In this document: positions 6,061-64,000 of the stretch, piece after piece
Layout: every line of letters begins with the position of its first letter
Numbering within the stretch: position 1 is the stretch's first letter
From: Tubulanus polymorphus
Lineage: Eukaryota > Nemertea > Palaeonemertea > Tubulaniformes > Tubulanidae
DNA length: 64,000 nucleotides
NCBI RefSeq assembly: GCF_964204645.1
Contig: NC_134036.1
Location: 3,089,501-3,153,500 of the forward strand
Reading direction: 5' to 3'
Notes under the pieces: model-generated
Told to the model about the DNA's origin: nothing
Seen by the model: only the letters and a program-made list of their open reading frames with translations
The model's database searches: none
Made by a program: the position numbers and the translations under genes

Positions 6061-6068
6061 TCGTGGAG

Positions 6069-6074
6069 TTTATT
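6069..6074 (-). terminator. Poly(A) signal of the calexcitin gene
   Basis: AATAAA on the minus strand, 41 bases downstream of the calexcitin stop codon. Confidence 0.7.
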
Positions 6075-6115
6075 GATTGTAATGGAGGGTTTGATTCTGC
6101 GTTTTGAGAGTTCAT

Positions 6116-23849
<17,734 letters not shown>

Positions 23850-27952: not shown

Positions 27953-30907
27953 ATGTTGTCGACGACGGCGAAGAGAAAGTTGATAATTGATACGGATGCT
28001 GGTCTGGATGATGCTCAGGCTATAATGATGGTGCTGGCGGATCCGAACGTTGAGCTGCTGGCGTTGACGACCGTAACCGGTAACGTACACGTCGATCAAG
28101 TCAACGTAAACGTTCTGCGAGTATTGAAACTGTGCAACAAATTGGACGTAAGTTTATACCGCGTAATCTTAGATTTCGTTTGAGCAGGTCGGGGGGCCAA
28201 GTATAAGTAGTCAACCCCCGATATACCGCCCACAACGATTTTGGCGGTATAGAGAGTATGGCGGTATATTGGAAGTGTTTTACTATGTATTTGTATTGAG
28301 ATGTACATTGAGAAAACTTGGAGGTAGGCGGGGGTGGCGTTAAATGGGAGGCGGTATATCGGGGTTGACTGTTGTTGAGTTGGTGAAACGTTAGGGTTAG
28401 AGTTGAGATTTCAATAGTGATGACTGCTTCATTTTTGACAGCGTTGAGATGTACAATTTGGAGTTAAAGACACATGAGTTGATCGTTGAAGTATAACCAA
28501 ATCTGTCATATTTGATGATATTTTCAATTTACAGATTCCAGTATATCAGGGCAGCTCTGATCCACTTGTAGGAGAATATGACAAGGGCGGTGCTGTTAGT
28601 TATCACGGTAAAGACGGACTGGGCGATGTCCCTAATCCAGAAGTGGTAGATATGAGTCTCATCAAGTCGGAGCCAGCCGTCTCGGCGCTTACACGTCTAG
28701 TAAACCAGTACCCAGGTAAAGAAGGATGGTCGATTTTTTATGTTCAGCTCTCTTTGCGAGGTCCATGAGGACACTGCAACGCAGTGCACTCCATGATGGT
28801 ACATGCTTCTGATCCCCTTCTTACAAACAACTCTTAAATCTACCAGAAAAAGCAACAAACCATCCAAATCTACTGAAGAATGAATCATTCTGAACCGAAG
28901 AAATCCACATGAAAAACCGATCCACTGAAGCAATTTGTTTTTCTCTTCAGGTGAGATAAGTCTGGTAGCTATAGGACCGTTAACGAATGTAGCCAAGGCG
29001 ATACGAACTGACGAGAAATTCGGCTCGAAACTGAAAGAATGTTACATAATGGGCGGAAACTATGATGGTAAAAACACAGTTATTTAGATCGTCTTTCAGT
29101 AACTGACCCCTGTACCGTGATATTTAAACACTAGTTTACATTAAGCAACCTTTCAGTAACTGACCCCTGTACCGTGGTATTTGAATACTGGTTTACATTT
29201 AACAACCTTTCAGTATCTGACCCCTGTACCGTGGTATTTGAATACTGGTTTACATTAAACAACCTTTCAGTAACTGTCCCCCGTAAACCGTGGTATTTAA
29301 ACACTGGTTTACATTTAACCTTTCAGTAACTGACCCCTGTACCGTGGTATTTAAACACTGCTTTACATTAAACAACCTTTCAGTAACTGAACCCTGTGCC
29401 GCGGTATTTGAATACTGGTTTACATTAAACAACCTTTCAGTAACTGTCCCCCGTAAACCGTGGTATTTAAACACTGGTTTACATTTAACCTTTCAGTAAC
29501 TGACCCCTGTACCGTGGTATTTGAATACTGGTTTACATTAAACAACCTTTCAGTAACTGTCCCCCGTAAACCGTGGTATTTAAACACTGGTTTACATTTA
29601 ACCTTTCACTAACTGACCCCTTTACCGTGGTATTTAAATACTGGTTTACATTAAACAACCTTTCAGTAACTGTCCCCCGTAAACCGTGGTATTTAAACAC
29701 TGGTTTACATTTAACCTTTCAGTAACTGACCACTGTACCGTGGTATTTGAATACTGGTTTACATTAAACAACCTTTCAGTAGGCCATACTAACTCCCTTA
29801 CTTACAATATATTAAATAACCTTTTCATCCGCGATGGAATGATATGACCCGAAATTTTAAACTGAGATGATATTTTCACAGGTATTGGTAACATTACGCC
29901 ATACGCCGAGTTCAACTTCTACGTCGACCCGGAAGCGGCAAATGAGACATTGACTAAACTAGGCTGTCCAATAACTATCATTACCTGGGAATTGTGTCTA
30001 AGACATCCACTTACCTGGGTAAGTTTTCTTCGAGCCAGCTCTCTACCAAATACAGCTCTCAGGTGAACAAAAATAGCGCGTTCCAAAATTCTGTCAAAAT
30101 AGTTGCCGACCTCGGAGTTTTTTAGATGGTAATTCCAGCTTCCGTTACTGGATGTTCTAATATCAAAGACCACCCATTGAAGATTGTAGGGATCCATAAA
30201 TGCTGGATATGAAAGGCAGGGATTTTCACCGAAAACCATGCATCCTTAAATATGCTTCACCGTTGCAATTGAAGGGGACGGAAGACCACAATCATGTAAT
30301 AATAAAATATCCAAGAAAGGGTTTGCCAGGATATATCTGCCTGGCTGTTTTGAACTCAATGCTTTAAAGGGATGTTGCTGTTAATGGATGGGAGGAGTTC
30401 AACAAACCACTTGACCATCAGATCACATGCAAAAACGACTGCCGTGCTTGAAAGAATCCTGTGAAGAAACGGGAGGAATGCAACAACGTACTGTCCGTTA
30501 TGGACAATGCGATCCTGTCACATGTTTCTGCAAGAGGAACTTAGTGACGCATTTATCTTATGTTACTGTTACAGGAAAGTCGTGACAATTACATCAACAA
30601 TCCCAGCAGTAAGGCGCAGTTCATCAAAATTGCCGAGACGGAAATCGTCGAAAGGCTACGAGACGAGGGGAAGACCTATATCTTTTGCGATCAATATGCA
30701 ACCGCCGCCATTTTGAATCGGTCGTTCGTTTTGGAGACGAAGCGGTGCCGGGCAACGGTGGCGCTGGAAGGTGAAAAACGCGGTATGATGGTTCCCGAAT
30801 GGACGCTTGAAACAGACGATGAACGCACAACAATTGACGTCGTTACGAAAGTCGACGTGGATATATTTTTGAAAATGTTTAACGAAATGTTAACCAGAGA
30901 TGAATAA
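27953..30907 (+). CDS. Inosine/uridine-preferring nucleoside hydrolase, isoform with first terminal exon
   Basis: Five exons: 27953-28147, 28535-28715, 28951-29067, 29882-30018 and 30575-30907; 963 nt, 320 aa, all GT-AG and in phase. The N-terminal D-T-D-A-G-L-D-D block at residues 13-20 is the calcium- and ribose-binding signature of the family. It is followed by V-T-G-N, A-I-G-P-L-T-N and I-M-G-G motifs and, in the last exon, C-D-Q-Y with the metal-ligand Asp, then L-E-G-x-x-R-G-M-M-V. Members cleave the N-glycosidic bond of ribonucleosides in salvage; substrate preference cannot be read here. The ATG at 27953 gives the usual short N-terminus. A repeat array fills intron 3. The AATAAA overlapping the stop codon suggests this isoform has a very short 3' UTR. 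Confidence 0.93.
29094..29785. repeat. About 60-bp tandem repeat in hydrolase intron 3, alternating A/B types
   Basis: About 11 monomers share AACCTTTCAGTAACTG and GTGGTATTT and ACTGGTTTACATT. Type A carries GACCCCTGTACCGTGG; type B carries GTCCCCCGTAAACCGTGG. From about 29270 they alternate as dimers of roughly 120 bp. Confidence 0.92.
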
Positions 30908-30908
30908 A
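30903..30908 (+). terminator. AATAAA overlapping the stop codon of the first hydrolase terminal exon
   Basis: The AATAAA hexamer shares its bases with the TAA stop at 30905-30907. If used, cleavage would leave a 3' UTR of only tens of bases. Confidence 0.5.
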
Positions 30909-31135
30909 ATTTCATGTCTATATAGAAAAATACTTCGGCATTACTTCTTCATTTAATTAATGAAAATGGCGCGGATTTTCAAAACCTGGTCACTAACGGT
31001 TTATCTGTTCGAAGCCTTGTTCCCATCCAGAAACCAACATGGTTGACCCTTAGGAAGCTTACACAAAATTGCCGTATCTCTAACCATTCATCAACGTTTT
31101 GATGCTTTTTTTTATCGGTATTTTTGCATTTTCAG

Positions 31136-31483
31136 GAATACTACGACACTTTCATTGGCCGTCCTCATCTACTATGCAAATTTATCGCCGCCGCCGAAAA
31201 TAGATCCGTCACTGGGCAACGCAACAATAACGACCGGTACCGGTGTTCGGATCAGTTCGCCGCGGCGATTGCCATCGACGAATCGGTTGCGGAAGAATAC
31301 GAAGATTGCCGACGTTTTCCGACGGTCAGGCTCGATGGCACCTACGAAGGTATGATGGAGGCGACATTTTGTGATAGGGGAGAACACGCTTCAGAGGACA
31401 ACGAGAAAACGAACGTTCGCGTCGTGACTGTTTTAGATATGAATAAATTCAAATCGTGTTTGGAGAAAATCTGTTCTCTGTAA
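31136..31483 (+). CDS. Alternative terminal exon of the nucleoside hydrolase gene (second isoform)
   Basis: A 348-nt exon 229 bp beyond the first terminal exon, preceded by TTTTTGCATTTTCAG and entering in the same phase (0). Joined to exon 4 it completes a 325-aa enzyme (27953-28147, 28535-28715, 28951-29067, 29882-30018, 31136-31483). It is homologous to the exon at 30575 along its length: E-Y-Y-D for E-S-R-D, S-D-Q-F-A-A-A for C-D-Q-Y-A-T-A and L-D-G-x-x-E-G-M-M for L-E-G-x-x-R-G-M-M. The metal-ligand Asp is kept but overall identity is low. It has a longer Ser/Asn-rich insertion and a Glu/Asp-rich tail. An AATAAA lies at 31748. It could instead be a decaying duplicate; the intact frame and splice site argue against that. 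Confidence 0.8.
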   Translation, partial: EYYDTFIGRPHLLCKFIAAAENRSVTGQRNNNDRYRCSDQFAAAIAIDESVAEEYEDCRRFPTVRLDGTYEGMMEATFCDRGEHASEDNEKTNVRVVTVLDMNKFKSCLEKICSL

Positions 31484-32207: not shown

Positions 32208-33615
32208 CTATCTATCGGGCAGAAAATGAGCTACGAACTCGGTATAGCTGTAAACATCACCGCATCCGACCGATTTTTCCATCGAGATGAAGTCATCCAA
32301 GTTATGGTTACAATCTGTGGAACACAAGACAAAAAGCGGACAATTTTTTTCGGAGATATTCTCATTTAAAGCCTGAACTGCCAAACGGCGAGACCTACCG
32401 TCAGTTTTAATACACGGATATTCGGGTGGAGGCTGTTGCCATTCACCGGACGACGTTCTCATGTGCGAACGATCGGAAGCGAACTTTTCTAAATAAACTT
32501 CGGCCGGTATTACGCGGAAATATCTGAAATGACAGGTCCAAAATTTTAAGATCATCGAGGAGCTTAGAGTCACAGCCATTCTTCAATATTATCAATGTTT
32601 ACATCTTTAATTTTTTACGCATAATAAATGAGGTTCTTGAAATACACCTGTGATATTTTGTTGCTAAACGTCGATCTTCGTGCAAGAACGCTTTATCCAC
32701 ATAGGTGGCGACACTGGTAGGGAACGACAACCGAGTATCAAGGTCATACACGTGACTTCCGTCTCCGTCGGTAACGTGCAGAAATATCACGTGATAATCC
32801 TGCGAACGAAAAAGTACTGCGTGACAAGAAGAGGTATGCGCAGGCAAAAATTGAAAAAAATCGTGTGCGACACTGCACACATCTTACCCAAACTACCGGG
32901 TCTTCGGGATCATCGGATGCAATTTGTTCCCAAAGCGGAATCTGAAATTAACGAAACCAATGAAGTTTATTTTTTCCAACACTGAGAATAAGCCGTACTA
33001 CGATGGTCTACGTGAATGCGGTGTATAAACGATGATCAAGAGCAGAGGATATTGAAAAGTATTCCCCGAACTCTCGGTACTATAGAGCCCACCCTTAAAA
33101 CTAACTTTGTCACCTCTTCCGGGCAAAATCAATCAGTTCCCATAGACATACCGTTCTATTTGGATTCGATAGAACTACGGCGTAACATTTTTCCAATTCC
33201 GAAGGAATCCGTTTACGAATCGATTCGCACATTTTCCAAACGTTCTCTTCACTGAATCGAGAATAGAAATTCGTGTAGCTGTTTTACCAAGAACATTAAA
33301 CCCTAAAGATCGTTATATTGGCCATGAAACGGGCACGAGGCACGAACCGATGTAATAAAATTATATTTGTAGTTTGAGTTTGTAACGGGTAATGAGCGGC
33401 CGTAGTGAGCTGCGTTAACAAATAATTATTAATTGTCATGGTATTTAGTATAGTATCAGTAGCCCCGCTACAAACCTAGAAAACAATAACGCACAACAGT
33501 GACATCTGCAGCACGTACTAACTACTTACCAAAAACATTTCGTGTAAATGCACTCGTCTTTCGAGGCAAAGAGAATTCCTCGCGATTGAGAGTCGTTTTC
33601 TTCTGTAGCGGCCAT
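32208..33615 (-). CDS. NTAQ1: Protein N-terminal glutamine amidohydrolase
   Basis: Six minus-strand exons: 33615-33530, 33251-33152, 32941-32888, 32799-32648, 32523-32399 and 32314-32208; 624 nt, 207 aa, close to the 205 aa of the human protein. The enzyme converts N-terminal Gln to Glu, priming proteins for arginylation and degradation through the Arg/N-degron pathway; it acts in cytosol and nucleus. The catalytic triad is visible: Cys29 in C-F-C-E-E-N, His83 in D-Y-H-V and Asp99 in Y-D-L-D. The F-A-S-D-R-S-H-M and P-P-x-Y-P-C-I blocks are family signatures. The 84-nt final intron (32398-32315) is a multiple of three and free of stops; splicing it restores the family sequence (K-T-D-D then N-L-D-D-F-I-S-M). 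The gene is convergent with the nucleoside hydrolase and divergent from thioredoxin. Confidence 0.95.
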
Positions 33616-44659: not shown

Positions 44660-47600
44660 ATGAAATCAAAAGATCGATGCAGAATTCAACCGTGTTGCGT
44701 TCAGCTGACCAGAGACTCGAATCTCGACAATCTCGCGATTTCACTCATTCGCAAACAAAATCGCAAACAAAAGGGTACGAAAATGATGAATTCGGCTGGT
44801 AACCAGCTACTGGGCCCAGTTTCACGAACAAGGGTTTAGGCCAAACTCAAATTTTTGGTGTAATTGCTATTGGTTACTTCATGTTTTCGATGAGGACAAC
44901 AATTCAAACTTAACCGTTTTAGGCTTAAACTTTCTCATGAAACTGGACCCAGCCCGCAATCATCAAAATCAAACCATTCATAGTCCATCATTTCTGAAAT
45001 CGCTGTTTTTTTTTGCAGGTGATGCGAGTAAGAAAAATGGAAACGGCGATCAATATCTAGACGAAGATATAAGTTTTGGTACGTGGCGAATTTCGTTTTT
45101 TAACATTGATTCTTAGGCAGGTTTCCATTGGTCTCTATCGATTCTGAAATCTTTTCTCCCATATTTTGATTTCGAACAGAATAGGCTCTACCTATTCCGG
45201 AGAGGAATAATCTGTAAATCCGAAAGGAGCGGCTGGTTAAGAGTTTGTAATCCAGATTTGCTTATTCCTAAACCAGGATTTATTTAGGGCCTAATCAAAA
45301 CCAGTCTTAATGTCCCACATATACGCCTGAAGCTGCCCCACACATAGACCTTGAATTGCCCAATACCTACACCCGGAGCTGTTCCACGCATACACATGGA
45401 GCCACCCAATACAAACACCTGAAGCTGCCAATGATACAAATACCTGGAGCCACCCAATACAAACTGTGCTGTCCCTCACATGCACCCGGAACTATCCCAT
45501 GCAGACACCCAAAGCTGTCCCAACTGTTCCTGAGATCAAATCAGTCAAAAATTGTTTATTTTAGTTATAATCTTTTCCCTATAGGTGGCACTGATGTAAA
45601 TAATGATGATGATGACGGAGATGATGAGTACGATCCGTCTGCCGACGTCGAAGACAGCGATGACGAGGAAATCCACACGTTCGAAACGAACAAACAAGTC
45701 AAGAATTATCGCCAAAAAACTCTCGTCACCGCGACGACGACTAAAAAGAAAAACTCTCGCTCGAACAATCGTCAACGGCGACGATCACCGCGACATCAGC
45801 GACAACGACGCGCAAGTTTACGGTCGTCGGCGAAATCGGACGATTTGACGTCGACTTCGGAGGATGACGACGAGTTGGAATATTCCGGCGCCGGGGACGA
45901 CGACGATGATTCGTTATCTTCTATGACGAGCATCGATTTGGACGACTTCGCGAAGAATTCATTACTCGGTATTGTCGATGAATCGCAGATCGGTAAAACG
46001 GCGTCGTTGGAACAATTCGTTGCTTCGTGGACCCCGAAAATCGAAGCGCAAACCGGAAAACCGAAATCGCGATGTAGACAAAGAAGCCGATCGCGACGGA
46101 AAACGCCCCCGCAACAATCGCAGGAACAATCGGGATGTGTCGCCGCGATGACGACCGCGCGACGTAAATCGTTGACCGACGTCACCGAAGTTTTAGGCGA
46201 ATTATGCGGCGAATTCAGTAGCTCAGATAGTTCGGTGGTCGAAGTGGCACGAATCGACCACCAGCCGGTCAAACCGGGCAATACTAAACAGACGTTAGAA
46301 TGGACATCGAGCGGCGTAGGGGACGACGTCATTCATCGAAATATTTGGGACGATATTTCGAAATATTCGATTGCGTCGTCGACGCGATCCCGAAAGCCGC
46401 GGTCGTCGAGACGGAGTCCACGTTCGAAAAGTTTCGAGGATCATAGAGTTAAACCGGTTAGAATGGCTCCCCCTAGACGGCGGTCTTTACCGGGCGGTGC
46501 CGTAGCGTCTACGAGGAGCCGATCTAGTCCGCGGTTGATGGCTGCCGCAGCCGTCGCTACGAACGTACGTGAAAAACGGTCGAAAAAGACGATTGAATCA
46601 AAAACGCAAATCGAAAATAGAAAAGTTAAGAATTCTACGACCGAGGAGACCACTACGTCTACCCCGACGAGCGAGATTACCCTCTATAGCGACGACATAT
46701 CGAAATCTTCACTTACCGACGAAATACAACCGAAAAAGGAAAATGTCATATTGGGAGTTTTTCCTGGGTCTGCTCCTCAAGAGGAGCATTCACCTTCGAG
46801 CGAGATTTTACCGAGCGGCGGGGACAACGTGTCAAAGACTTTGCTAGCGGATGATAGCGATGATTTGCGGGTTTTTAGACCATTGATGCTTCCTGAAAAT
46901 GAGGAGGATGAGGTGGACAATGATGGGGAAATTCTGTTCCTCGACGACAAGTCAGGAGTTTTTTCGAAAAAGAAACCCGGAGACGTCGACGATTACGATG
47001 AAAGTAGTGCCACCTCGGTGGAAGTTGTTAAATTAGAAAAAGAAGGCGATGCGGTTTCGGTCGATGATTCGAACGCTTCGGATGAAGGATTAGAAAATTT
47101 GGGGAAACTGTCTTCGAAAATTTCCGCGTCGAAAAAGTTTGAGGATGAGTTTGACGGCAAGAAAACAATTTTCCTCTCAAGTGGCGATACGCGCGTTAAC
47201 CAATCACAGGGTATTAAACATTCTGGCAGCAGCCAATCGGATCATGTTACATGCGAATCCAACCAATCATCGTCTCCGAAAGATGCGGCTATTCTTCCAG
47301 CTGTACAATCGCAGGATATGATTGGCCGGAATGATGACAAGTCTAGCCAATCATCACCTCAGTTGGAATCTAAATCTCAATCACGGCACGCGAATGAAAT
47401 TCAGGATGGAACGTCTGACCAATTACAGTGCTCAATTGACAGTTCTGACCAATCGCAGAAGAAGGATCCAATATCAGACCAATCACAACGCACAAATGAA
47501 TCTGAGAAATCGCTGAATGAAACATTTGACCAATCACTGTGCTCAATTGACAAATCTGACCAATCATTGACCTCCAACCATAAAACTGACCAATCAGAAA

Positions 47601-50600
47601 GTTTGGACATTGAAACCAGCCAAACAGAGGAATCTATTCATAAATCTAATCAATTGCAGCAAAGTGTGGTCTGTGAATCTGGTCAATCGCAGAAACCGGT
47701 GAAAAAATTTAACCAATCAGAGCAGAGTTCGTTCTGCCAGTCTGACCAATCGCATGAAACAGTGGATATATCCAACCAATCGCCACACCGTTCTGAGAAT
47801 AGTCCCAACCAATCAGAAGATGAATTCGTGAGTTTGAAACGAATGCACGATAAGAGCACGGCGATTTATCATGTTTTGTCCGGGTCGAATAACACTGATA
47901 AGAGATTACCTCGTGAAGATTCACCAGGTGAGTTATTAATATAAAATCCGAGAATGAAAAATTGTAATGTACAGAGTAGATATGCGGCCATTCGGGTAAA
48001 CTTTTAAACTCAGTAGAATTGAGAAACAATGTGTCTTAACCTAACAGTAAGCTGTTAACTGTCTAGCCTAACAGTAAAATTTAAATCAGTAACTGTGGTC
48101 CATAGTTTTTAAAACCCATCCTCTATGTTACTAATGGTGATGTTTATCGGGCTTTTTTCCTATTTTCAGATTATCGCAGTTTTATTACGGGTCTCCAATT
48201 TTGTCCTCCTTCAATCATCAAATCATCACCGCCTCACCTGCCAGAGACAGCTGAATCGAAACGTCAACGACAGAAATCCAGACTAGGTTTGTGTTACTGT
48301 ACATATAGGCCTATTGTATATAACTGTAACATAGATGCTCGAACACTGTTCAGAGAATTGAACTGATAATCACTGAGCTTACACTTATTGGATAGACGTA
48401 ACTACAGTAGAACCTGCGTATCAGATCGAAATCGAATATAATATTTTATTGATAATAAGCAAAACTGATAGTTGATGACTTAACAGTTTATTCTGACAGT
48501 TTCAACTAGAATTCAGCATCGGAGAAATAAAAATAACACAATAACATTATTCATGTTTATCATGTGATTTTGGGTTCTCTGATGATGAAGCTAAGTCAAA
48601 ACTTCGTAGAAACTGTCAGAAAATAAATTGTTAAATCTTCAACTGTGGAGTTTGTTCATCAACTCGGAAATACTGAGATTGATATCAGTCTCTACGGGTC
48701 ATTGTATTTCACATCCGCAGTAACCTATTCCTCATAACACTGAACCGATTTATTTTTAGACGAATTACGCCGGAAACTGGAAGAATTAAACGACGATGAT
48801 AAGAGTTTATCAACTGCATCGACGCAGACAATTAGCTGTAACCGTCCGTATGTTTGTCCGGTAAGTGTGCGGAGAGCTGACACTGTGACAGTCACTGTCC
48901 CAATCTCAATGAATATCAAATCCCTGTCATCCCCTGTATCAACTAGTGAAGTGGTATGTTTTTCAAACCCTTCACTCCTACTTTCTACGCCTGCAATCAG
49001 TCACATTAACTCTTTCTCCTTTGTAGTGATCACTTATTGAGTCCTGTATTGTGTTTGTTCAGGGTGGCCACTTTCCTGGAAATCAGGGAAAAGTCAGGAA
49101 ATGTTTTTTTTTCCTTATAAAATTCAGGGAATTTTGTAGAAAAGATCTCAGGGAAATTTGTTAAGGTTGCTTGTCATACCTAAAATCAAACAGTTTGCCT
49201 CTTTGCCATATATGACTGTGTTAATTGATGGATTCTTAACAGATCATGTCAGAGAAAACAACGTATACATGTCAGGGAACAGTTGGGGATAAAGCAAGTC
49301 TAATAGAAATTGTATTCACAGTCCAATAATTGTGAAGGACAAACTTCTGAGATACTTTATTTATATCGGAACATTTCAATTCATGTCACGTGCTGCCATC
49401 TTTCTATTTTCGTCGAAACTACTTACCTTTCTCGCTGGTATGATTCTCTGTTAGAGCTACTAAGTATGTCCTGATGAACTATTTAAATTCAAATTTCTCT
49501 TACGATTATCCCCATGGATCTTGACCGGAACAAACTTTTCCATTAATTCACTGAAATATTTGTTTAATTTGCATACATGTTCAACACCGAATTTATAGCT
49601 TGGTCGAGTTGAATACTTAAACATTTGAATAATTGTGGGGAAAGAGAAGAACCTACGAAAAGAAACTCAATTATTTGGCAATCCAAACCTATTTCCCTTT
49701 GAAATACAAGTTGGATTATCCAGCACATGCAGATGGCATCTCTGAAATTGATCTAACCTGTCAGCTTACTATGATGAATGCTGAGAATTAATATAGTGTT
49801 ATGAGATGGTTATCACATGTTTTGGTCATGCACTATGTCCTTTCACATATTTTGGTCATGCACTATGTCCTTTCCGCTGGTTCAAATGATTTATCAAGAG
49901 ATAGGCCTATATGATATATGAGAATATAGATGATAGATAAGAGAAGTCTCTACAGTGAGAATATCTAATCTGTAGCCTCATATTTCAGAACAAAACGCAT
50001 TATTTTTCCTTTCCTACTTATTTGATGATGAAAGTATCTGAATAATTAGTGATTGATTTATAGAAATAATGAATCGGAATTTTTGGAAGCAGGATTTTAA
50101 AGGGGTATCTGGGCTGTATCTGCCACTGCTGCACTACACCGCACTGACCTGACCGCAACACATTTGACTGTACCACATTCAACAACTTCAGCATTTTCAT
50201 GTATTTAAGATATGCGGTTACGATTTCTGGACGCTGAGCGAGCAGCAAACTCACATGAGCGGTCATCGTCAGGACGCGGTCAGTCTGCACGTCAACCTGT
50301 GTCTAGAGGCTATGATCGAACGTAGACGACTCGGTTTAGTCGTCAACATGCCCAATTTCGCGCACCGGTGCCCGTCGTGCGAGGCTGATTTCTCCGGAAG
50401 AGACGCACTCGGACATCATGCAAGATTTTTCGATAATTACACGCAGCAGTACGCGTTTCACAGTCACGTCTACACCGATCCATCGTGCGTCGATGATAAT
50501 CTCAACGAGCTCATCTCACAAACAGGTAATAGAATCAAAGCTGATCGTTGAGCATGGTCGCATTGTGCGCAGGGTCCCCAGGTCAAAAAACTAAAGCAGT

Positions 50601-53600
50601 TTAGATTAAATAAAACTATTTGTTTTTGATTGGGTCTTATTTATTATGATGTTTCCTCGATGAAAATGGCTAGAAATTTTATTTCTAAATTCCGACCACC
50701 ATGAGAATGTGACAGCATAGCGCATGCAATGAACCATGTCCTGGCGCCACCAGCCAGGACATGGTTCATTGCAAAGTTTTGCCATCTATCAGAAATAATC
50801 AGAACTAAAAACGTCTGGTGCGGGCACATAGAGTTATAAGGATAGTGTGCTATACAATACTATATTGACGAGCTGATTTCGTCATATGCACAAGAAATAA
50901 CAATTTTTTTATGAGCCCAGCTTGTCATACGCGGCAAAAGGGTAATAGGAGGGATTGGTTTGTCGATAGGTGGGTGGGTTAGGAGAAGAAAAAGGAGTAA
51001 TTTAGAAAAGAGTAGCATGTAATGAGGGATAGTTTTTGAAACGTTTGGTTAGGTTTGCAAGTTGGATATAGATTTTGAGGAGGGAGTGTAAGTTGAGATA
51101 TGAAGATATTGCATTGCAAAATTAGAATTAGAATTTTTTCCTTCTCATAGACTATGTGTGTAAGACGAAAATCAACAAAGACAACCTGGCTGCTCTGCGA
51201 GATATGGCTGAAAATCTCGCCACCCCTATTTCAGCTACTGAACAACCAGACAGCAAGCAACTAACTGAAGATTCTAACATCCCGAAAAACTCAACAGAGA
51301 TTCTTACGGTTGATGTGAAAAAGTCACAACCACCACCGATGAAGGTGACCGAACATGAAATCACTGAGTTTTCACTGCTAGGTGAACCAGTATCTGGAAA
51401 TGATGTTGAAAAGAATTTGGCCATGTTGCAAGATTTGGCAGAAAATTTGGTATTCAATTCTGAAAATAAAGATGACGCGTCAAAAAGTGAAGTTGCGGTG
51501 GAGACCGAAGCCTGCAAAATGCTCAGTGTTGATGAAATTTCTACCTCGAATGTCGATTCTCAACTTTCAGAGAATGTCGAAAAAGTTGCCAATGGCAGGG
51601 ATCATGGCAATAACATGATCATTGAAAAACAGGAGAAAGAGGATGGCAAGGAATACTACTGTGATAAAAGCCTTTCTGAGAATCCGAATGTGATTACAAA
51701 CAGCTCTGTTATTCAGAAAGTTGCTTCTGAAAATAGAAATGAGCCTATGGTGATGAAAAGTGATGATTTGAATCTCGATGTCTCCATAAATGAGGACAAT
51801 ATAAAATACTCTAATGAAAGCCAGTTTGAAAGTCAGAGTGCGATAATAAATACGCCTGTAGTGATAGATTCTGAAAAAGTCCAAAACCTTGAAACAGCTG
51901 AAAATAGAAGCATTGAAAATGTTGATTCAGATGAGAATGCAGCAAAGAAAACTTCATCTCCCAGTAGGGAAATCGTAAAGACAACTGAAAAGTGTGAAAT
52001 TCTGCCATTGAACGAGAACTTTCCTGTTGATAAACTAGAACAAGAAGCAAATCTAGAAATTGAAAAGATTTCAACAGATGATCATTGTTCTGATAAAACT
52101 TCTACCGATAAGGAAATTAATTTGGAGCAAATGGATGATTTTGAAGTGCCGCCACTGAATGAGAAATTCTCTTTGGATGATAAACAAGATGAGTCAAATT
52201 TATCGAATACACAAGGAGAAATTGTCGAAAGCACAACGGTTGTTCGAGTGAAATCACCAAGCAAAACAACGGAGATCGAAATAAGTACTGGCACAGCTGT
52301 CACTAATAGTGAGGCGACTTCAGCTGATCAGGAATCACTTACCAAAGTTAAAAACACATTTACCTCAGAAATGGACAAGGAATCTAAAGATGTTGAGATG
52401 AGCGATGTATCTCAGACTAGTGCTGATGATATGGAGGTAACGGAAATATGTGCTGCGAAAATCTTAGCAAATACAAACCTCGAAAACTCTATGCCAGAAA
52501 AAATAGATCTAGCCCTAGAAGAGTCGAAATGTGAATGTGTTGATGATTCTGCTGTGACAAAAACTGGCATTGAATTAGAAATTGCTGATTTGACCACTAG
52601 TGACCCTAGAGAACAGCTGAGTACTGAATCTCTTGATGTTGCCAAAGACTCAATAGCATGTAGGTCACCAAGAGCCAGCATCCCGGACATTAGTGGTTCC
52701 ATAGAACAGCTGAGTACAGAATCTCTTGATGCTGCCAAAGACTCAATAGCATGTAGGTCGCCAAGAGCCAGAATCCCGGACACTAGTGGTTCAATAGAAC
52801 AGCTGAGTGCAGAATCTCTTGATGCAAAAGACTCAATAGCAGAAGCTGAATGTAGGTCACCACGAGCAAGCATCCCGGACACAAGTGGTTCAATAGAACA
52901 GCTGAGTACAGAATCTCTTGATGCAAAAGACTCAATAGCAGAAGCTGAATGTAGGTCGCCAAGAGCCAGCATCCCGGACACTAGTGGTCCCATAGAACAG
53001 CTGAGTACAGAATCTCTTGATGCAAAAGACTCAATAGCAGAAGCTGAATGTAGGTCGTCAAGAGCCAGCATCCCTGACACTAGTGGTTCCATAGAACAGC
53101 TGAGTACAGAATCTCTTGATGCAAAAGACTCAATAGCAGAAGCTGAATGTAGGTCGTCAAGAGCCAGCATCCCTGACACTAGTGGTTCCATAGAACAGCT
53201 TAGTACAGAATCTTTTGATGCAAAAGACTCAATAGCAGAAGCTGAATGTAGGTCACCAAGAGCCAGCATCCCGGACACAAGTGGTTCCATAGAACAGCTG
53301 AGTACAGAATCTCTTGATGCAAAAGACTCAATGGCAGAACCTGAATGTAGGTCGCCAAGAGCCAGCATCCCAGACACTAGTGATTCCATAGAACAGCTGA
53401 GTACAGAATCTCTTGATGCAAAAGACTCAATAGCAGAAGCTGAATGTAGGTCACCAAGAGCCAGCATCCCGGACACAAGTGGTTCCATAGAACAGCTGAG
53501 TACAGAATCTCTCAATGAGAAAGACTCAATAGCAGAAGCTGAATGTAGGTCACCAAGAGCAAGCATCCCGGACACTAGTGGTTCAATAGAACAGCTGAGT

Positions 53601-56600
53601 ACAGAATCTCTTGATGCAAAAGACTCAATAGCAGAAGCTGAATGTAGGTCACCAAGAGCCAGCATCCCGGACACAAGTGGTTCCATAGAACAGCTGAGTA
53701 CAGAATCTCTTGATGCAAAAGACTCAATAGCAGAAGCTGAATGTAGGTCGCCAAGAGCCAGCATCCCGGACACAAGTGGTTCCATAGAACAGCTGAGTAC
53801 AGAATCTTATGATACAAAAGACTCAATACCTCTGAATATGTCACACATACAAAACATCTCAGCAGCTGAAACGAGCCTACTTGAAGAAGTAAAAAATGAC
53901 GATGCCATGCCTTCATCATATGTCATTTTGTCAGCTGATTCAAATACAATATGCGATTCATCGAATGAAATAAGTAACTCTGAGGTGACAACTACTCAAA
54001 CTTTGTCAGATGCTAATAATCCTGTAACTGGTCAAACAGAGAATGAGGGTTTCGAAGAGAAGACGAATGATGAAGCTTTACAAAGAAACATTGATAATAA
54101 TGGATTAGAAACTGGGATTCACATCGATAATTCAAAATGCGAAACAACTGATAACGATTTTCAAGAATCAAGACCAGTTGCATCAAATACAATCGATGAT
54201 AGTTTTCTTCTTTGTTCAGAAACATTGGATGACACTCCCAGCTCGAGTCCAAAATCAACCTCTATGGTTCCTACGACTGATGAAACATTGACTTCTGCGT
54301 CGGATAAGGATTCGCGAAAAGAAGCTGAAGTTGTGATTGAACAAAAAAATTCATCGGAATTCACATGTTTGAATGCCAGTATAGATCAAAAGCAGGAAAC
54401 TGAAGCTATGCAGGAATCAACGGAAGAATCAATGGAAGAATTTCAGTCCTCTTTCAAGCCAATATTTGCCGATTCAGGTGAAACAAACTCCAATGTAGAA
54501 TCAGATAAGCTTCAGTCTGTACAGCTAGATAGTACAAATTCGTCAGAAGCCATAAGTACCGGCGGTACCTCCAATATAAGCCAGATTGATGAGATTGTGG
54601 ATCAGATCGAGAAATTGGATGACCATAATCAGAATTTGAAAGGATGTGAAGTCTCAGGCCAGACTGAAGGAAATAGCGGTTCACTATCAGATATTGAAGA
54701 CACGGAAAAAGATTCGATGACTCACGGAAGCATCGTTAGAAGTGGCGAAATTGATGACAACACGAGTCAAGAATTGAACCCAAATACCGAGGAAATATCA
54801 ATGACTGATATTGAAAGCAAAGTTGTTGAAACACACGAAATAGATGAAGAAAAGGTGGACGATGATATTATAGAAATGTCAAAAACTGAAAATGTGAGTG
54901 TCTGTGATGAAGATGTAGTTACTGTTGATGTAATTTCTGCTGCTAGTAGTGATAAAATAAAGGAAATAGATTATGATGTTATGGAGAAATGTCAGCCAGC
55001 TCAATGCAGCAATGAAAACAAGACTGAGCACCCCGGTATATCGGCTGATTCACCTGAATCAGTTGATATCACAATGCAAGAAACAATTACTGTTGCAGCT
55101 GAAGTATGCAGTCTTATGCCGGATCTTTTGTCAAAAGTTGAATGCGAAATTGAAGCTTTCAAAACCAGTGAAGAAGAAATTCCAAATCAACTGAATTTAA
55201 CAGAACTGACCTGTTCAGAAAATCCTGGCTCGGCAATGGATTCAGTTACCGAAAGTTCAGAAGTAGCAACAAAAATATGTGTTGCAGATGACAGTTTGGT
55301 TCACCCAGCCCAGGTTGCCGTAGAGCCTGAACTTGAATCGGATGGTGGTGTAGATGACAGTTTGGTTCACCAAGCTCCGGTTGCCGTAGAGCCTGAACTT
55401 GAATCGGATGGTGGTGTAGATGACAGTTTGGTTCACCAAGCTCCGGTTGCCTTAGATGAACTTGAATCGGATGAAGTGATATCCGATGAAACAGTTGATA
55501 TATGCAAATCCATACAAGAGGATGTAAGGTTTGAAATGCACGAACCAACCGTAAACGTAACGAATCAATCGGAAATAAGAAACGAAGCTAAGAAAGAAGA
55601 AGTTGTTCTCGATGAAGATAGTTTGATAGAATATGTAGAAGGCGAGGCTGTGGAGAAATTAAATGCTGCTCAATCTGATTCCCTGCAAACTATTATACCC
55701 CAAAATGTGCCTAGATCTCCAAATGATGGTGATTCTGACCCCGCTCAATCTGTATCTTCTTGCACACCACACTACGACCCTTACATTCCAATATCCAATG
55801 CATCTGCGGTGGATAGAATTGACCAAGACTCATCTGGCTCCCATGTCTCATATGGAATAAATTTTACTGACAAGAAAGAAATCGAAATTTGCCAAGAATC
55901 AGTAGAACCTAAAACTAATCCTCAAAAGTTTCCCAGCTACGGGTCTGGTGAAAATATCCACTGCTTGATTCGTGAGAAAATTCCTAATGAAACTGTACCA
56001 ATGGAATTGGATCAAGTGAAAGAAATAAAAATTGGTGATCGAATTGATGAAGAAGAATCATTGTGTAGCATGAATGAAAGTGGGCAACAAGAAATTTCAG
56101 AGCATTTAGAAGCCCATGCAACATCTGATAATGACGAGGAATGTGTTGGGTTCAAAGATGATGGAGAAATAGATTCGAAGCAAGTAAACCTCGACAGACA
56201 AGAGACCCAGTCTGGGAGTACCACGGAAAGCAATACCAAAAATAATCAATTTGTTGATCATAACTTGATTGATGCTAACCAATCAGTTCCGATTGTTAGT
56301 GAACAGAATTCTGAGATAATTCCACCAGAATCCCTGATGCAAACTGGCGAAAATGAAAAAGTTTCTGATACTATTCAGAAAGAATCTCTGCCAGATAATT
56401 CTACTCCAGTGAAACCTGAAGATAACGTGTCAGAAGTTGAAGGAGAAAGTGTTGAAATATGTAAACACGAATGTAACAATGAATTAGAGTTAGAGAACAA
56501 TGCCACTGATAGTAATGATAAACAGAACAGTTCTTATGGAACTTTTTCTGACCAACCTGAAGAAAGTGGTGGACCTCAACTTGATGCAGTCTCTCTCACT

Positions 56601-59600
56601 GTGGCTGATAATTGTGAGAATTTATCCGAAGTTTCTGACTCCCCAAATGAGGGTCTGTGTGACCAAGTCAATGTCTCGCCCACTGAAGCTGATGCTGGGT
56701 CTGAAGGTTTTGATTCATTACAGCCTGCAGTTTATGATGCACCAAAACTGAGCTCAACTGCCGCTGAAGTTTCGAACCTGCAAATACTCGAAACTCCTGT
56801 CGAATTAGAAGTTTCCAATTCACACAAGGATGATGAAGATAAGAAAATCAAAGACCCACTGATTCCTGCGGAAGCTGGTGACACACCCGAAGTTTCAGAC
56901 CTTATGGTACTGAGTGAAGCTGGTCTCAGCACTGAAAATTGTACCTCATCCAAAGATACCTGTAATTCAGTGGTGAAATCTTCGATGCCTTTGGACGAAG
57001 CTTCAAATCCGATGAGTTGGAATGAAGCTGATATCGCATTTGATCTAAAGGCCTCAAAAGAAGACAGTCACAGTGACTTAGTTGAAGCTGGTGCTGTATC
57101 TAGAAAACATGATTCACCAGGAGACGCCCAATCTTCATCAGTTGAAGTATCGAATGATCTTTTCTCTGAAAGGTCAAAAGAAGACAGTCACAGTGACTTA
57201 GTTGAAGCTGGTGATGTATGTAGAAAACCTGACTCACCAGGAGACGCCCTATCTTCTCCATTAGTTGAAGTATCGAATGATCTTTCCTCTGAAATGTCAA
57301 ACGATGGCAAGGTTGATCTTAACACCTCGAAAGATAGTAGTCAGACTGACCTAGTCAAAGCTGGTACAGCACCTGGAAAACATAACTTATCATCAACTAA
57401 CCAGTGTTCATCAGTCGAAGCCCCGGCGTCTTTGGGCGATGTTTCGAAAGAAGTTGCCTCTGAAACTGCAACTGATTCAAAGGTTGAAAACAAAGATATT
57501 GATTGTCGTAGTGATGTTGAGCAGTCGGCATTCTTCGCATCGCTCTCTCTACAACAGGGACCAGCACCGGCTGTGATCAGGTCGCCAGAAAAACCATCGG
57601 GAAATACCCGCTTGAAACGACAACGAAGATTGTCCGAGAATATGGCAGCGAATTCGTCAGCGGTCAGGTCGACGGCGGTCGAGAGCACGAAAACATCTCC
57701 GACGAAATCACCTGTTAAAAAAGCGAGAAGCGTTGCAGAAGCTCAGTCTCAGATAGCGGAGGATGGTTCGACCAAAGAGGTAGCGAAACAACGTCCCAGA
57801 AACATGCAGCGCACACCTGACATTATTAAAGTGCATAATTTACGCAGCAAATCGAGTGGGAGTGGTTGCCCGGCAACGGCGGCTGCTGCTTCAGAGCATG
57901 GGCATAATTTACGTAAAAAGTTATCACAAGTCAAAGGCTCAGAACGAGTAACAAGGCCCAGTCAACGAGCTAAGGCCACGAGTCGGTCAGCTCAATCCAC
58001 TGATGCACGAGAAGATAAACTGAAATGGAAAGCTCATGAAAGGGCTACGAAAAAGGCCGTCCGCGAAACTGCTGATACAAAAAAGAACGAGAAAGCCAGG
58101 GGCAGCAATGTCACTAAAGATGGCGGTAGCAGAGGTCGCAAATTGAGGACGGCAGATAAGAAGACTGTGGCCGAAAAATCGTTGAAAGAGGTTAAAAACT
58201 CTAAATCGTCGGCCGTTGAGTTAGTGGCCGATTTGTTTACATCGGAAGAAAATCGACGAACGTCTGCTAAGCTCGTCGCCATGGCAATACTGGACGACAA
58301 CAAAACGTCTAAAGTGGAAACGGAGAGCAGTATCGCTTCTGACTCGGAGACGAGTGAAGCGCCGAAATTTGAGAAAGTTATCATCAACGATTCGAAAATC
58401 GAAAGTCTGCCGCGTACGCTCATCAGGTGCGAACACTGCGCAGTTCAGTTGGAGACTCACGCCTCGGCCGTGCGTCATATGCGCGTTCACAACATGCAGC
58501 TGAAAGACGATGATAAAAATCACGCATGCGCGATTTGCGCTAAGAAGTTCATCTGCGAGTTCCTGCTCGACGAACACATCCGGTTGACGCACGCTTCCGG
58601 TTATAATCTCGTGTGTCCGAAGTGTCCGGAGCGGTTCATGTGGAGGATACTCTTAGAGGAACACATGGAGTCCTGTCATGTTCCGATTGCTGAAGAATTA
58701 CAGGCTGGTATGTATAGTTTGATTTCGACTAAGTTAAGCAGGTTCCGATCCTGGAATCAGCTCTGACGCGTTCGTTTCGACCGAAATACGTTCTGCCCAT
58801 TCGAGAATACAGTCAATGCCCGTTATAATGCCGTTGCTAAGATAGAGAACATATTTGTCCAATCTAACTCAATGAAAATACCATTCCTTTTTTACGCCAA
58901 ATTACCAATAGCGCCAAAGATAAAAACCCACTATTTACAAATTAAAATAAATCTAAAATCGAGAAACGTATTTATTGAAACGAAACGATCTAAAATATAA
59001 GAACACGATGTTTCGATCTCACCCTAGAGATCATCGTCTAGGGTGAGATCGAAACGTCGTGTTCTTTTAATTCGTAAATAGTTGGTTTTTATCTTATCAT
59101 CTGTTCACCACGTGTGTGTGTGGTTATGGTACCACTATAGCGCCATTGGTCCCAAAAGTGCCATTATAACGTAGCATAATCTGTAAATCTGATAGAAGCG
59201 GTAGGGAGTTTGTATCACGTGTTTGATATTTCTAAATCGAATGCACGAACTTTCAAACGGAACCTGCATTACATATGGAATGATTTCATGCCACAAACCA
59301 GTGCCAGGTTTTATTAACTTTAACCTTAAAGATAATTCCAGTTTGTAAATCAGGGCCCTGAAGCTTTTCCACAATTAACATAAATGAAATAAACATGCCT
59401 GTGTATTGTATCTATTTCAGAAACGGTTAACACCAGTCCAAAGAGTTTCAAAAGACGAAAGAACAAACCGTCCGATGCAAAGTCACGATTCACGTGTCAT
59501 TTGTGCAGCAATACCTCGATCGGTAAAGCGAACCACCGTAAACACATGCGTTTACACGGATACGGACCGTGCATGGAGTGCGATCTGTTCAAGCCGTATC

Positions 59601-62323
59601 ACAGCAAGTGTCGCAGTAAAGAGTGCATAACTTTCCGCAAAACTGCCGCCGAACATCGCCGCAAAATCGCCGGCTCTACGCCGTCGAAGAGAGCGGCGAG
59701 CGCGACGATCTGGAAACGGCGATTGGACGACGACGCCGGCGATGATACTGGAAATATCGGCGATAAAAAACAACGTGTAAAAAACGAACCGAGCGAGAAG
59801 ATGATGAAGATATTCGAGAAAGTTCCGCCGGCGTCGACGGTTACTTTCCTGTCTCCCGAGAAGAACAAACTCGAATCTGATGAGATTGGGGAGAATAGCG
59901 GTGGAGCCGGTCGAGGTCAATGGGGACAGCGTCTTCACCTGGCGAATGAAGATTTCGAAGTGACGTTTTTGAACGAATTTAAACCCGATGTGAAAAAAAC
60001 GACGGAAATTGAACTGAAAGAACCGACTAAAGCTTCATCTGCGAACAATGAGACGGAAAATATATCTAGTTCAACAGCGGCTAATGACAGTATAAACTCA
60101 ACTGTTGTTGATTCCGTGGTGACCAGTTGCGATGTTCGGACCGTCGCCCCTGGAAATCAAACATCTCCACCTCGGACTAATGACCCCGTCAATTCACAAT
60201 CGCAAAATTTAGAAAACGACGGAAAGGTTGACGTTTCCGACAACGTTAAAAAGTGTTCGGAAAATAACGAAATGTACCGACGAAACGCTGGTGGGGAAAC
60301 GAAAACTGAACCGGCTGTTAACACAGGAATTCGCGTGCCCGGCGCGCCTGTACAAATGGCAGTTTCGCCGAAGCCGGTTAGAAAAAGGAAAATGACCGAT
60401 CGACTGTTAAGTTATCGGCAAGAAGTTCAGAAGAAAAATTCGAAAACGAAAAAATATCGTAAGACCGTCGAAGACGAACGCTTCGAAAAAGCAGACGATA
60501 GCGACGACGAGATATCGTTTAGAAAATCTGCACTACCGCTCGTACAAGTCGACTGGGAACTAAGCGAACAAGGTCAAGGCGACGTGGAGAACAACTGGCA
60601 AATACCTGACGTAGAAGAAAGCGGTTTAATTAATGAACCAATAATTTCGTTATCTGAAGCCGTACGACAGGCGAAAGACCAACAAGAACGCGGAGACATT
60701 CCGGTGCCGATAGCAGAAATTGGAGATGCGTTAGTTGAAGAAACGCATCCGTTTGTTGTTGAAAATGTTCACATTGAACAATCTCCGATAGCAGACAACA
60801 CTGCTGATATCGGCGGCGACGACAATGTCCAAAAACATTTAACTGCAGCACAAACTGAATGTGTCGAGAGTAGAAAATCTAATGTCGAAAGGCAGCAACA
60901 AGTCGCAGATGAAATTACATCATCCGTAACTTCGAGGCAGCAGTCATCACTTCCGCAATCGGATCCGTCTCGTATCGCGCAGCAAAACCAATATCATCTA
61001 AACGAAGAGAATTCCAAATGGAATTCATTGAAATCATCGTCATCGTCCTCGTCGACTTCATCTTCACCCGTCTCTTGGCAACACGGTCGCTTTCTAGCTG
61101 GCGCTACATACGAGCGACGGCGTAAGAAGCAGCTTTCGGGAGTTCGTGTCTCGACGAAAAGAACTTCGGAAGATGATGGCGACGGATGTAAATACGCGAA
61201 AAAACCTTCCACTCGAATTGGCAAGACACGCCGTCGGTCGCAGGAGAGTCCGGAATACTCGTCGAGGCGAAGGGGTCCGGCTTACTCGTGGGCGTCCTTA
61301 GCGCAGCACGGATTCTCGGTGGATAGTTCTACAATGGATCATAGTTTGACCATCGAAAGTCCCACGAAACGGAGCAGTTCGGTCGAACAGTCGAAACTGT
61401 TTGGAACCGATACGACCGATGGAAGGCTGCCGATTAAGTCTCTTGTCGTGGTACGGCCAGTATCGGTAACATCTCTGAATCAAAACAACGCGCGTTTGGA
61501 AGAGAGTCTCTCGACCGCCTCTAAACAAGATACTTCACTCGCGAAAAGCCAAACAACCGTCTCAGATCGAATGGACCGTTTGGTCCGAACCGGTGGATTG
61601 ATTTGTTCTAGTAAGAAATCCCTGAATCCTATGCCTTCATCGAGTAATTTTCAGCATTCGAAAGCGACTACGCGTACCATTGAACATGTCTCAGCAGAGT
61701 TGGAAGTACAAACAAATTATCATCTGGAAAGCTCAAAAGACGATGCTCCGGTGGTTGGTCAAAAGCAATTCATGGACATAAAATTTACGCAATTGGCGAC
61801 CAGACGACCCAGTACATCCTCGGCTTCGTCTTACGTGGACGAGTTGATTTCACCCGAGGGAGAGAGCGAGGTGATAGCTTCGTACGCAATGAATGCGTTG
61901 AAGAGGTTGAGCGCTTCTGCGCAACAGCAACCATCGCAGCCACTGGTAAAATGCGAGCCACACCAACAGCAGCAGCAGCAGCAGCAGGAACAGCAGCGTG
62001 GTCTCACCTGGGAAGATATCGTACGTGGTAAAAAATGCAGCTCGTCGCCAACGCCATCTATATGCAGCTCCGTCATGTCTAAGACGCCGACTCAGACATA
62101 CAAGCCTTATAAACCGGAAGGGATGCCGCCGCCATGCGAGGTATGCGGCGAGAAGAACGACCTGTGGGCGACTGCTTTATCGCATCTTATTTCGCATCGT
62201 GATAGCCACGCGGCTGGTCGCTATAACTGCGAACACTGCGGTAAGAGGTTCCAGTGGCAGTTACTCTACTCCTATCACATACAGGTGTGTCAGAGTCTGA
62301 ACAACGACGCCAATAACGCATAG
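44660..62323 (+). CDS. Giant acidic, low-complexity C2H2 zinc-finger protein (4,511 aa)
   Basis: Eight exons: 44660-44798, 45019-45078, 45585-47927, 48170-48286, 48760-48860, 50210-50525, 51151-58707 and 59421-62323; 13,536 nt, every junction GT-AG and in phase. An in-frame TAG at 44642-44644 precedes the ATG. C2H2 fingers: about residues 918-940 (C-P-I-C, split by intron 5), a degenerate one near 965-985, three near 3451-3536 (C-E-H-C, C-A-I-C, C-P-K-C), one near 3567 (C-H-L-C) with an extra C-x2-C, one near 4447 (C-E-V-C) and a C2HC finger at the end (C-E-H-C, last ligand Cys). Between them lie long Asp/Glu/Ser/Thr-rich, presumably disordered stretches, an Arg-Ser/Pro-rich segment (residues about 280-360), a D-Q-S repeat zone (605-811), a 33-aa repeat (about 1512-1915), a basic region (about 3290-3400) and a short poly-Gln. 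A nuclear DNA- or chromatin-binding role is inferred; I recognise no orthologue. Confidence 0.88.
44811..44954. repeat. Miniature foldback element in zinc-finger intron 1
   Basis: TGGGCCCAGTTTCACGAACA and GGGTTTAGGCC on the left mirror TTTAGGCTTAAAC and CTCATGAAACTGGACCCA on the right. It begins 12 bp after the donor site of exon 1. Confidence 0.7.
45310..45525. repeat. Degenerate ~30-bp tandem repeat upstream of exon 3
   Basis: Variants of CAATAC(A/C)(A/T)ACACC(T/C)G(A/G)AGCTG(C/T)C recur about seven times within intron 2. The frame that reads through it into exon 3 is not part of the gene model. Confidence 0.6.
47195..47822 (+). repeat. Coding repeat: D/N-Q-S motifs in zinc-finger exon 3
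   Basis: About 18 occurrences of (D/N/S)-Q-S in a Ser/Lys/Glu-rich context, spaced 8-17 residues. At DNA level most are (G/A)ACCAATC, so the exon carries a dense cluster of CCAAT pentamers on the plus strand. Confidence 0.85.
48496..48620 (+). other. Hairpin with hammerhead-like motif in zinc-finger intron 4
   Basis: TTCTGACAGTTTC is mirrored by GAAACTGTCAGAA about 100 bp later. Between them CTGATGATGAAGCTAAG then TCAAAACTTC (48579-48605) resembles the CTGATGA ... GAAAC hammerhead layout of Penelope-like elements, with a degenerate second box. Confidence 0.35.
49062..49165. repeat. Dispersed-repeat fragment in zinc-finger intron 5
   Basis: CAGGGTGGCCACTTTCCTGG followed by repeated CAGGGAAA(A/T) words is the end of a common animal DNA-transposon-derived repeat; no opposite end was found. 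Confidence 0.4.
49818..49874. repeat. Tandem duplication of about 32 bp
   Basis: CACAT then (G/A)TTTTGGTCATGCACTATG and TCCTTT are repeated back to back. Confidence 0.8.
50725..50773. repeat. Perfect 21-bp hairpin in zinc-finger intron 6
   Basis: TGCAATGAACCATGTCCTGG plus C (50725-50745) and its exact inverted complement (50753-50773) flank a 7-nt loop GCCACCA. No mismatch. Confidence 0.9.
52611..53830 (+). repeat. Coding minisatellite: 33-residue repeat, 12 full copies plus one partial
   Basis: The 99-bp unit starts GAACAGCTGAGTACAGAATC. Each encodes E-Q-L-S-T-E-S-L-D-A-K-D-S-I, then A-E-A-E-C-R-S-P-R-A-S-I-P-D-T-S-G-S-I. The first two copies are 93 bp, lacking the A-E-A-E part and carrying an extra residue. 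Copies are nearly identical at DNA level, including third positions. Each has an R-S-P-R-A-S phospho-site-like core and a single Cys. Confidence 0.97.
55287..55475 (+). repeat. Coding 66-bp repeat, three copies
   Basis: GATGACAGTTTGGTTCACC begins three 22-residue units (D-D-S-L-V-H-(P/Q)-A-(Q/P)-V-A) inside exon 7; the third lacks the E-P. Confidence 0.9.
57055..57300 (+). repeat. Coding 123-126 bp duplication in exon 7
   Basis: TCAAAAGAAGACAGTCACAG starts two closely similar units ending at GTATCGAATGATCTTT; a diverged third follows from about 57325. Confidence 0.85.
58999..59066. repeat. 28-bp-stem hairpin in zinc-finger intron 7
   Basis: AAGAACACGATGTTTCGATC then TCACCCTA, and the right arm TAGGGTGAGATCGAAACGTC then GTGTTCTT, pair with one mismatch around a 12-nt loop. 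The right arm ends in TCGAAACGTCGTG, a word common at Penelope/hammerhead-type repeats. Confidence 0.85.
61965..61998 (+). repeat. CAG tract coding poly-Gln
   Basis: A (CAG)n run interrupted by GAA encodes H-Q-Q-Q-Q-Q-Q-Q-Q-E-Q-Q in the last zinc-finger exon. Confidence 0.9.
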
Positions 62324-63553: not shown

Positions 63554-63893
63554 TCACAATTCTTCTTTATCTCGAGTTTCATTTTCTAGACTGGATTTCG
63601 TCTTCTTTTCACTTTTCTTCGTAGTTTTCTTGTTCGCAACATTTTCCTTCTAGAAAACAAACATGAAAAACATCATAAAACACCAAACGAATTCTTTCTT
63701 AATCAGATCTTTTAAAAAACCCGGACCCTGGTCGACTACGGTTCTCACTTGCACAGATCCGGCTCCGGGGTAAACTTTCCCTTCAATCGTTACGTCTTTA
63801 CAGCGATCCTGAGCGATCAAATAATTCTTAACAGTCCACGCGAGTGCGCCGTCCTGCAGTACGAACAACACCCGGTCGGGACTTGTAACGTAT
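63554..63893 (-). CDS. MESD: MESD, LRP-receptor chaperone (last two exons, partial)
   Basis: Exons 63893-63749 and 63649-63554 on the minus strand; the gene starts beyond the right edge. The visible part matches the end of the MESD/Boca structured domain: S-P-D-R-V-L-F-V-L-Q-D-G, then A-W-T-V-K-N-Y-L-I-A-Q-D-R-C, then D-V-T-I-E-G-K-V-Y-P-G. A Lys/Glu-rich tail ends in K-E-E-L, an ER-retention-like signal where vertebrate MESD has R-E-D-L. MESD folds the beta-propeller/EGF modules of LDL-receptor-related proteins in the ER and is needed for Wnt co-receptor LRP5/6 export. The 99-nt intron between the exons is stop-free until its last codon; the splice is chosen because it restores the basic tail of the family. 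Confidence 0.9.
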
Positions 63894-64000
63894 CTGAAAA
63901 TTTTTTAAAAATTGAGGAAAATTTGAACGAAGTCAATTTAGAAAAGATTATGAAAATAACAATTACACGGGTCCCACTTTTCAAATCCAGATCTCCAGAT

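Follow-up and report, generated by a model that had tools for sequence, protein, structure and literature searches.

A 4,503-residue zinc-finger protein predicted in Tubulanus polymorphus, probably a scaffold

A window of 64,000 bp (the whole stretch of DNA analyzed here; C12:3089501-3153500 on NC_134036.1, in the 267.8-Mb, 77-contig assembly of Tubulanus polymorphus) contains an apparent gene so long, and with so few zinc fingers, that three questions arise: is it one intact gene, what might its fingers contact, and to which family, if any, does its protein belong?

The gene model and its neighborhood

The gene model was rebuilt from the window DNA by joining stop-to-stop frames and inspecting splice sites, resulting in eight exons and a coding sequence of 13,512 bp (4,503 codons and a single stop at the end), with GT-AG at all seven introns. 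This reproduces two claims of an earlier note on this DNA, namely that eight exons join in phase into about 13.5 kb of coding sequence and that one exon is 7.6 kb long (exon 7 measures 7,557 bp). The exons all lie on the plus strand. Exon 1 (44660..44774) opens with the presumed start ATG, 18 bases after an in-frame TAG at 44642, and is followed by exon 2 (45019..45078), the charged, Ser-rich exon 3 (45585..47927), exon 4 (48170..48286), exon 5 (48760..48860), exon 6 (50210..50525), the mainly acidic, Ser/Thr-rich exon 7 (51151..58707) and exon 8 (59421..62323), which includes the stop codon. The junction phases in exon order are 1, 1, 1, 1, 0, 1 and 1; phase agreement alone is weak proof, because the splice sites were chosen to fit. 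The junction of exons 5 and 6 is the best supported, because it joins up a C2H2 finger, A1 (C911...H931), with the beginning of the first Cys pair (C911) in exon 5 and the remainder (to H931) in exon 6, where the degenerate finger A2 (from residue 966) also lies. The joined model predicts a protein of 4,503 amino acids, about 494 kDa and pI 4.7.

We evaluated the coding potential of the exons in two ways. The exon-7 frame extends over 2,544 amino acids, far above the longest stop-free run (233 amino acids) in a 2-Mb first-order Markov simulation read in three frames, indicating that the open frame is not due to chance. The in-frame codon score (with three long, unrelated zinc-finger frames of this genome as the training set) is positive for all eight exons (0.05 to 0.28), and every one of the seven introns scores below zero in all three of its forward frames (-0.08 to -0.23). 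Scores are weak for exon 1 (0.146) and for exons 2 and 4 (0.053 each), and another frame outscores the chosen one in exons 1, 2, 4 and 6, this other frame being stop-free only in exon 1 (0.158 versus 0.146). The gene is real and intact.

Several other features of the window were recorded. The gene is flanked by Pfam matches to an N-terminal glutamine amidase (32211-32883, minus strand) and to Mesd (63653-63904, minus strand; read by eye, this match continues in locus L030), which are usable for synteny. Exons of a nucleoside hydrolase lie at 27866-31480 on the plus strand, with two frames above the Pfam cut-off; the frames at 30548-30904 and 31103-31480 give sub-threshold matches, both to the C-terminal end of the profile, and thus point to a partial tandem duplication. 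A 4.5-kb tandem array at 15606-20170 has periods of 54, 99 and 153 bp and a GC skew of about 0.75, and all three of its minus frames are open for about 1,600 codons each, probably an effect of the repeat rather than a gene. Two further arrays, at 8067-8485 and 11161-11476 (about 2.7 kb apart), seemingly have one 60-bp unit in common, as judged by eye.

Zinc fingers and the tracts between them

A ligand-pattern scan of the protein places eight fingers at residues 911, 966, 3444, 3477, 3506, 3562, 4442 and 4473, in a 2-4-2 grouping (blocks A, B and C) with about 2,460 and 860 residues between the groups. Finger A1 spans residues 911-931; B1, B2 and B3 lie within residues 3444-3527 (58428..58679, plus strand), B4 at residues 3562-3582 (59495..59557, plus strand), and the C-terminal fingers C1 and C2 within residues 4442-4493 (62135..62290, plus strand). 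The earlier note had placed two fingers near residue 950, four near 3500 and two at the C-terminus; these positions hold, but two of the fingers are not classical, in that the last ligand of A2 is abnormal and C2 is of the C2HC type (C1 is C2H2). Its description of few, scattered fingers joined by acidic, Ser/Thr-rich linkers, unlike the layout of tandem-finger factors, agrees with our finding that only 170 of the 4,503 residues (3.8%) are in fingers.

Block A, across the exon 5/6 join, passes the curated Pfam cut-off for zf-C2H2_4 (31.5 bits versus 27), and no Pfam model scores above cut-off in blocks B and C (zf-C2H2_4, 10.4 and 10.1 bits), although the ligand pattern is present in both; by its sequence, then, the protein is classed as a member of the C2H2 superfamily. 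It has no TGE[KR]P linkers, an absence that says little because two of four control loci with a similar pattern also have none (three linkers in L021, one in L029, zero in L023 and L018).

In the seven regular fingers, the residues at positions -1, 2, 3 and 6 of the helix are TSET (A1), TASR (B1), CFLE (B2), WILE (B3), GANK (B4), LATS (C1) and WLLY (C2). If V, I, L, M, F, W and Y are counted as large hydrophobic residues, then C2 has four at these reading positions, B3 three, B2 two, C1 one, and A1, B1 and B4 none (five of the seven testable fingers have fewer than three). Of 155 control fingers taken from this genome, two have three such residues and none has four, and Trp at position -1, present in both B3 and C2, was found in one (only fingers with the classical F/Y and L positions were admitted as controls, and C2 itself lacks this L; nor are the controls a random sample, because many of the control loci were drawn from the finger-block search). 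Outside the Cys and His ligands, B3 and C2 also resemble one another (score of 61 versus a shuffle mean of 23.6, with none of 2000 shuffles reaching the score), as do B2 and B3 (0 of 2000 shuffles) and B2 and C2 (5 of 2000); 28 pairs were compared, and the seven involving A2, whose segment stopped short of the first Cys, were disregarded.

Protein binding is favored for B3 and C2, because large hydrophobic residues, Trp included, occupy positions that would otherwise read bases. The earlier suggestion that the modules mainly contact DNA or RNA is not borne out, given the hydrophobic reading positions in these two fingers, and the simplest reading of their likeness is an internally duplicated protein-docking finger. 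This argument about the finger surface is drawn from sequence only, because both single-sequence AlphaFold2 models are poor (mean pLDDT of 43.9 and 54.7).

Ser, Glu and Asp make up 14.1%, 9.7% and 8.3% of the protein. Between residues 1001 and 3000, all eight blocks of 250 residues are acidic, with net charges of -27 to -49, and the two such blocks across residues 3251-3750 are basic (+15 and +9). The tandem-repeat scan found, in frame on the plus strand, 12 copies of a 33-residue unit at residues 1522-1915 (52662..53843; a feature absent from the earlier note), 3.0 copies of a 22-residue (66-bp) unit at 55279..55473, and 2.0 copies of a unit of about 40 residues (120 bp) at 57054..57301. Comparison of 11 full copies of the 33-residue unit gave a pN of 0.052 (raised by inclusion of the last copy's ragged end) and a pS of 0.163 (pN/pS of 0.32); with pN below pS among copies, the repeat keeps its protein sequence, and copying between units could have contributed to this constancy. 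A degenerate [DN]QS repeat occupies residues 597-802 (47198..47815, plus strand), with 11 copies of the motif in residues 590-805 as compared with a mean of 1.07 and a maximum of 5 over 2000 shuffles, for a segment that was picked post hoc.

Scanning of the whole protein for CtBP, HP1, HCF-1, LxxLL, PIP, PP1, NPF and NPxY motifs returned zero matches, and SUMO and CK2 motifs are as frequent as in shuffled sequence, so that no partner or kinase is indicated. No ATM-type SQ/TQ cluster was evident (36 sites in the protein versus 44.6 in shuffles, with nine sites within residues 590-805). Counts above the shuffled means were obtained for SP/TP (57 versus 44.5), for LC8 motifs of the [ST]QT type (8 versus 2.8) and for K/R runs of at least four residues (4 versus 0.64).

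The hydrophobic fingers together with the acidic, repetitive tracts favor a protein-binding scaffold with, at most, weak nucleic-acid contact. On balance we lean toward a nuclear scaffold of the C2H2 superfamily, very large and acidic and for the most part of low complexity; the scaffold role is probable, and we infer the nuclear location from the fold class and the basic clusters only. The acidic, Ser/Thr-rich, repetitive tracts, disordered under this reading, would present numerous binding sites, perhaps under the control of phosphorylation; B3 and C2, with B2 a less clear case, would dock partner proteins through a hydrophobic helix face; and the polar fingers A1, B1 and B4, with the basic residues 3251-3750, might make weak contact with DNA or RNA.

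Search for relatives and the case for a single gene

No close paralogue was found in the same genome for any of the four parts used as queries: exon 8, the finger block of exon 7, exon 6 and the two C-terminal fingers. Exon 8 matched itself alone. For the other three queries, the best match after the gene itself scored 38.8 bits with 34% identity (finger block; 150 of 386 candidates were scored) or had an E value of 0.02 (exon 6) or 0.003 (C-terminal pair). Loci L021 and L024 (from the finger-block search) and L023 (from the C-terminal-pair search) were considered as a duplicate family and rejected; read by eye, they are other multi-finger genes. L021, for example, shares with the giant protein the C2H2 pattern and a long frame, but its stop-free frame (1967-9139 of that locus) shows the C2H2-type pattern 37 times (with two overlapping matches) in 2,391 amino acids, as against eight positions in 4,503. 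As a separate observation, several dozen of the 74 C-terminal-pair matches, together with locus L019 (G000:C12:10810906), have a common stretch of 25-30% identity, in frames of up to about 440 amino acids; the one of these that was read, L019, has matches to zf-U1 and weak ones to C2H2 models. The group is possibly a mobile element.

The earlier failure to match the protein to a named family was repeated here. Across five exon frames and the four blocks that were searched, no family-specific Pfam model scored above cut-off (zf-C2H2_4 in block A was the sole pass), and ZAD and BTB domains were absent. No family stands out among the listed matches of three PDB sequence searches (the best 60 of 98, 45, and the best 60 of 72), at the top of which are C2H2 proteins of many families (Aart, PRDM9, CTCF, ZBTB and ZNF proteins). 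In the collection of viral contigs (viral_contigs), block B had one pattern match and block A four, and in that of prokaryote contigs (genome_contigs) block A had 51, none confirmed in either; both are a poor place for animal genes, and this null was expected. Rfam had no matches across the 64-kb window. A search for the COX1 family gave no matches either, so the assembly seems to lack the mitochondrial genome. Assignment of giant low-complexity zinc-finger proteins is difficult, since their short finger blocks are the only alignable parts, and the present one is most probably a C2H2-superfamily member that is little known or confined to its lineage.

Known proteins with scattered fingers include WIZ/ZNF644, RREB1/Hindsight, PRDM2 and ZNF469, and we regard it as somewhat unlikely, while still a serious possibility, that the gene is a strongly diverged orthologue of one of these or of a similar protein. 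Such proteins are generally large, with isolated fingers and rapid evolution between them, and WIZ (widely interspaced zinc finger) has, going by its name, fingers that lie far from each other. The lack of a family-specific signal in Pfam or PDB sequences speaks against such an orthologue, but weakly, because those libraries hold few scattered-finger families. More tentatively, and with some doubt on our part, the protein might represent an undescribed animal family outside all named ones, a half-megadalton scaffold with 'Trp fingers' (C..C..RF.W..LL...H...C/H; B3, C2 and partly B2) as protein-docking modules. These would be central and C-terminal in position, would stem from duplication with a spacing of about 970 residues, and would be embedded in long, disordered repeat tracts.

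We also considered whether two or more adjacent genes (such as one made up of exons 1-6 and another of exons 7-8) have been joined on paper, which we judge to be improbable. Left unspliced, the exon-6 frame meets a stop at intron bases 24 to 26, with an AATAAA downstream of it near 50609. A phase match at any one junction has a one-in-three chance, and the sites were picked to fit. However, the exon 6/7 border has a consensus-like donor (ACAG/GTAATAG) and a pyrimidine-rich acceptor (TTTTCCTTCTCATAG), the exon-7 frame opens just 19 bases upstream of that acceptor, and it has no in-frame ATG ahead of the Met in 'RDMAENL'. The eight exons probably form a single transcript, as predicted from the DNA. 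The gene offers a clean model, a repeat array with a kept protein sequence, and a testable claim of protein binding for some of its fingers.

Comparison with the ZAS/HIVEP/Schnurri proteins

ZAS/HIVEP/Schnurri proteins are described as very large (>250 kDa), with few C2H2 fingers in separated groups and with acidic and Ser/Thr-rich tracts (PMC3048431, PMC2889900); ZEP/Schnurri fingers are said there to form two pairs plus a solitary finger (PMC2889900), and the ZAS finger pair to come with a Sal-box, FTTKGNLK (PMC5892016). We queried the genome with the human MBP-1 finger pair (its sequence matched to 1bbo; 150 of 936 candidates scored), and of the 144 matches reported, none of those listed falls in the window.

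It is hardly credible that the giant protein is the organism's own ZAS/HIVEP/Schnurri, binding DNA through two distant finger pairs in BMP- or NF-kB-linked control, despite a layout and size that resemble the ZAS description (PMC3048431), because the MBP-1 query found a Schnurri homologue elsewhere, on contig C8, in a 1,159-aa frame with both finger pairs (79% and 57% identity to human MBP-1) and two Sal-boxes, FSFKTKSNL and FSFKTKGNL, whereas the giant protein has no Sal-box (F.TKGNL, TKGNL and KGNL, zero matches), the window has no match to a related Sal-box DNA pattern, and MBP-1 and the window fingers are 23-35% identical in the main alignments. Orthology to HIVEP/Schnurri was rejected on these grounds, and a distant relationship is possible.

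The 2-4-2 grouping differs from the two pairs and solitary finger of the published description, and the finger sequences are unrelated to those of ZAS/HIVEP/Schnurri beyond the C2H2 pattern. The likeness is one of layout only: size (494 kDa), separated finger groups, and acidic and Ser/Thr-rich blocks. That the layout is new in kind, as the earlier note had implied, is not supported, because it resembles the ZAS/HIVEP/Schnurri description (PMC3048431); the architecture of the giant gene is of an already known kind.
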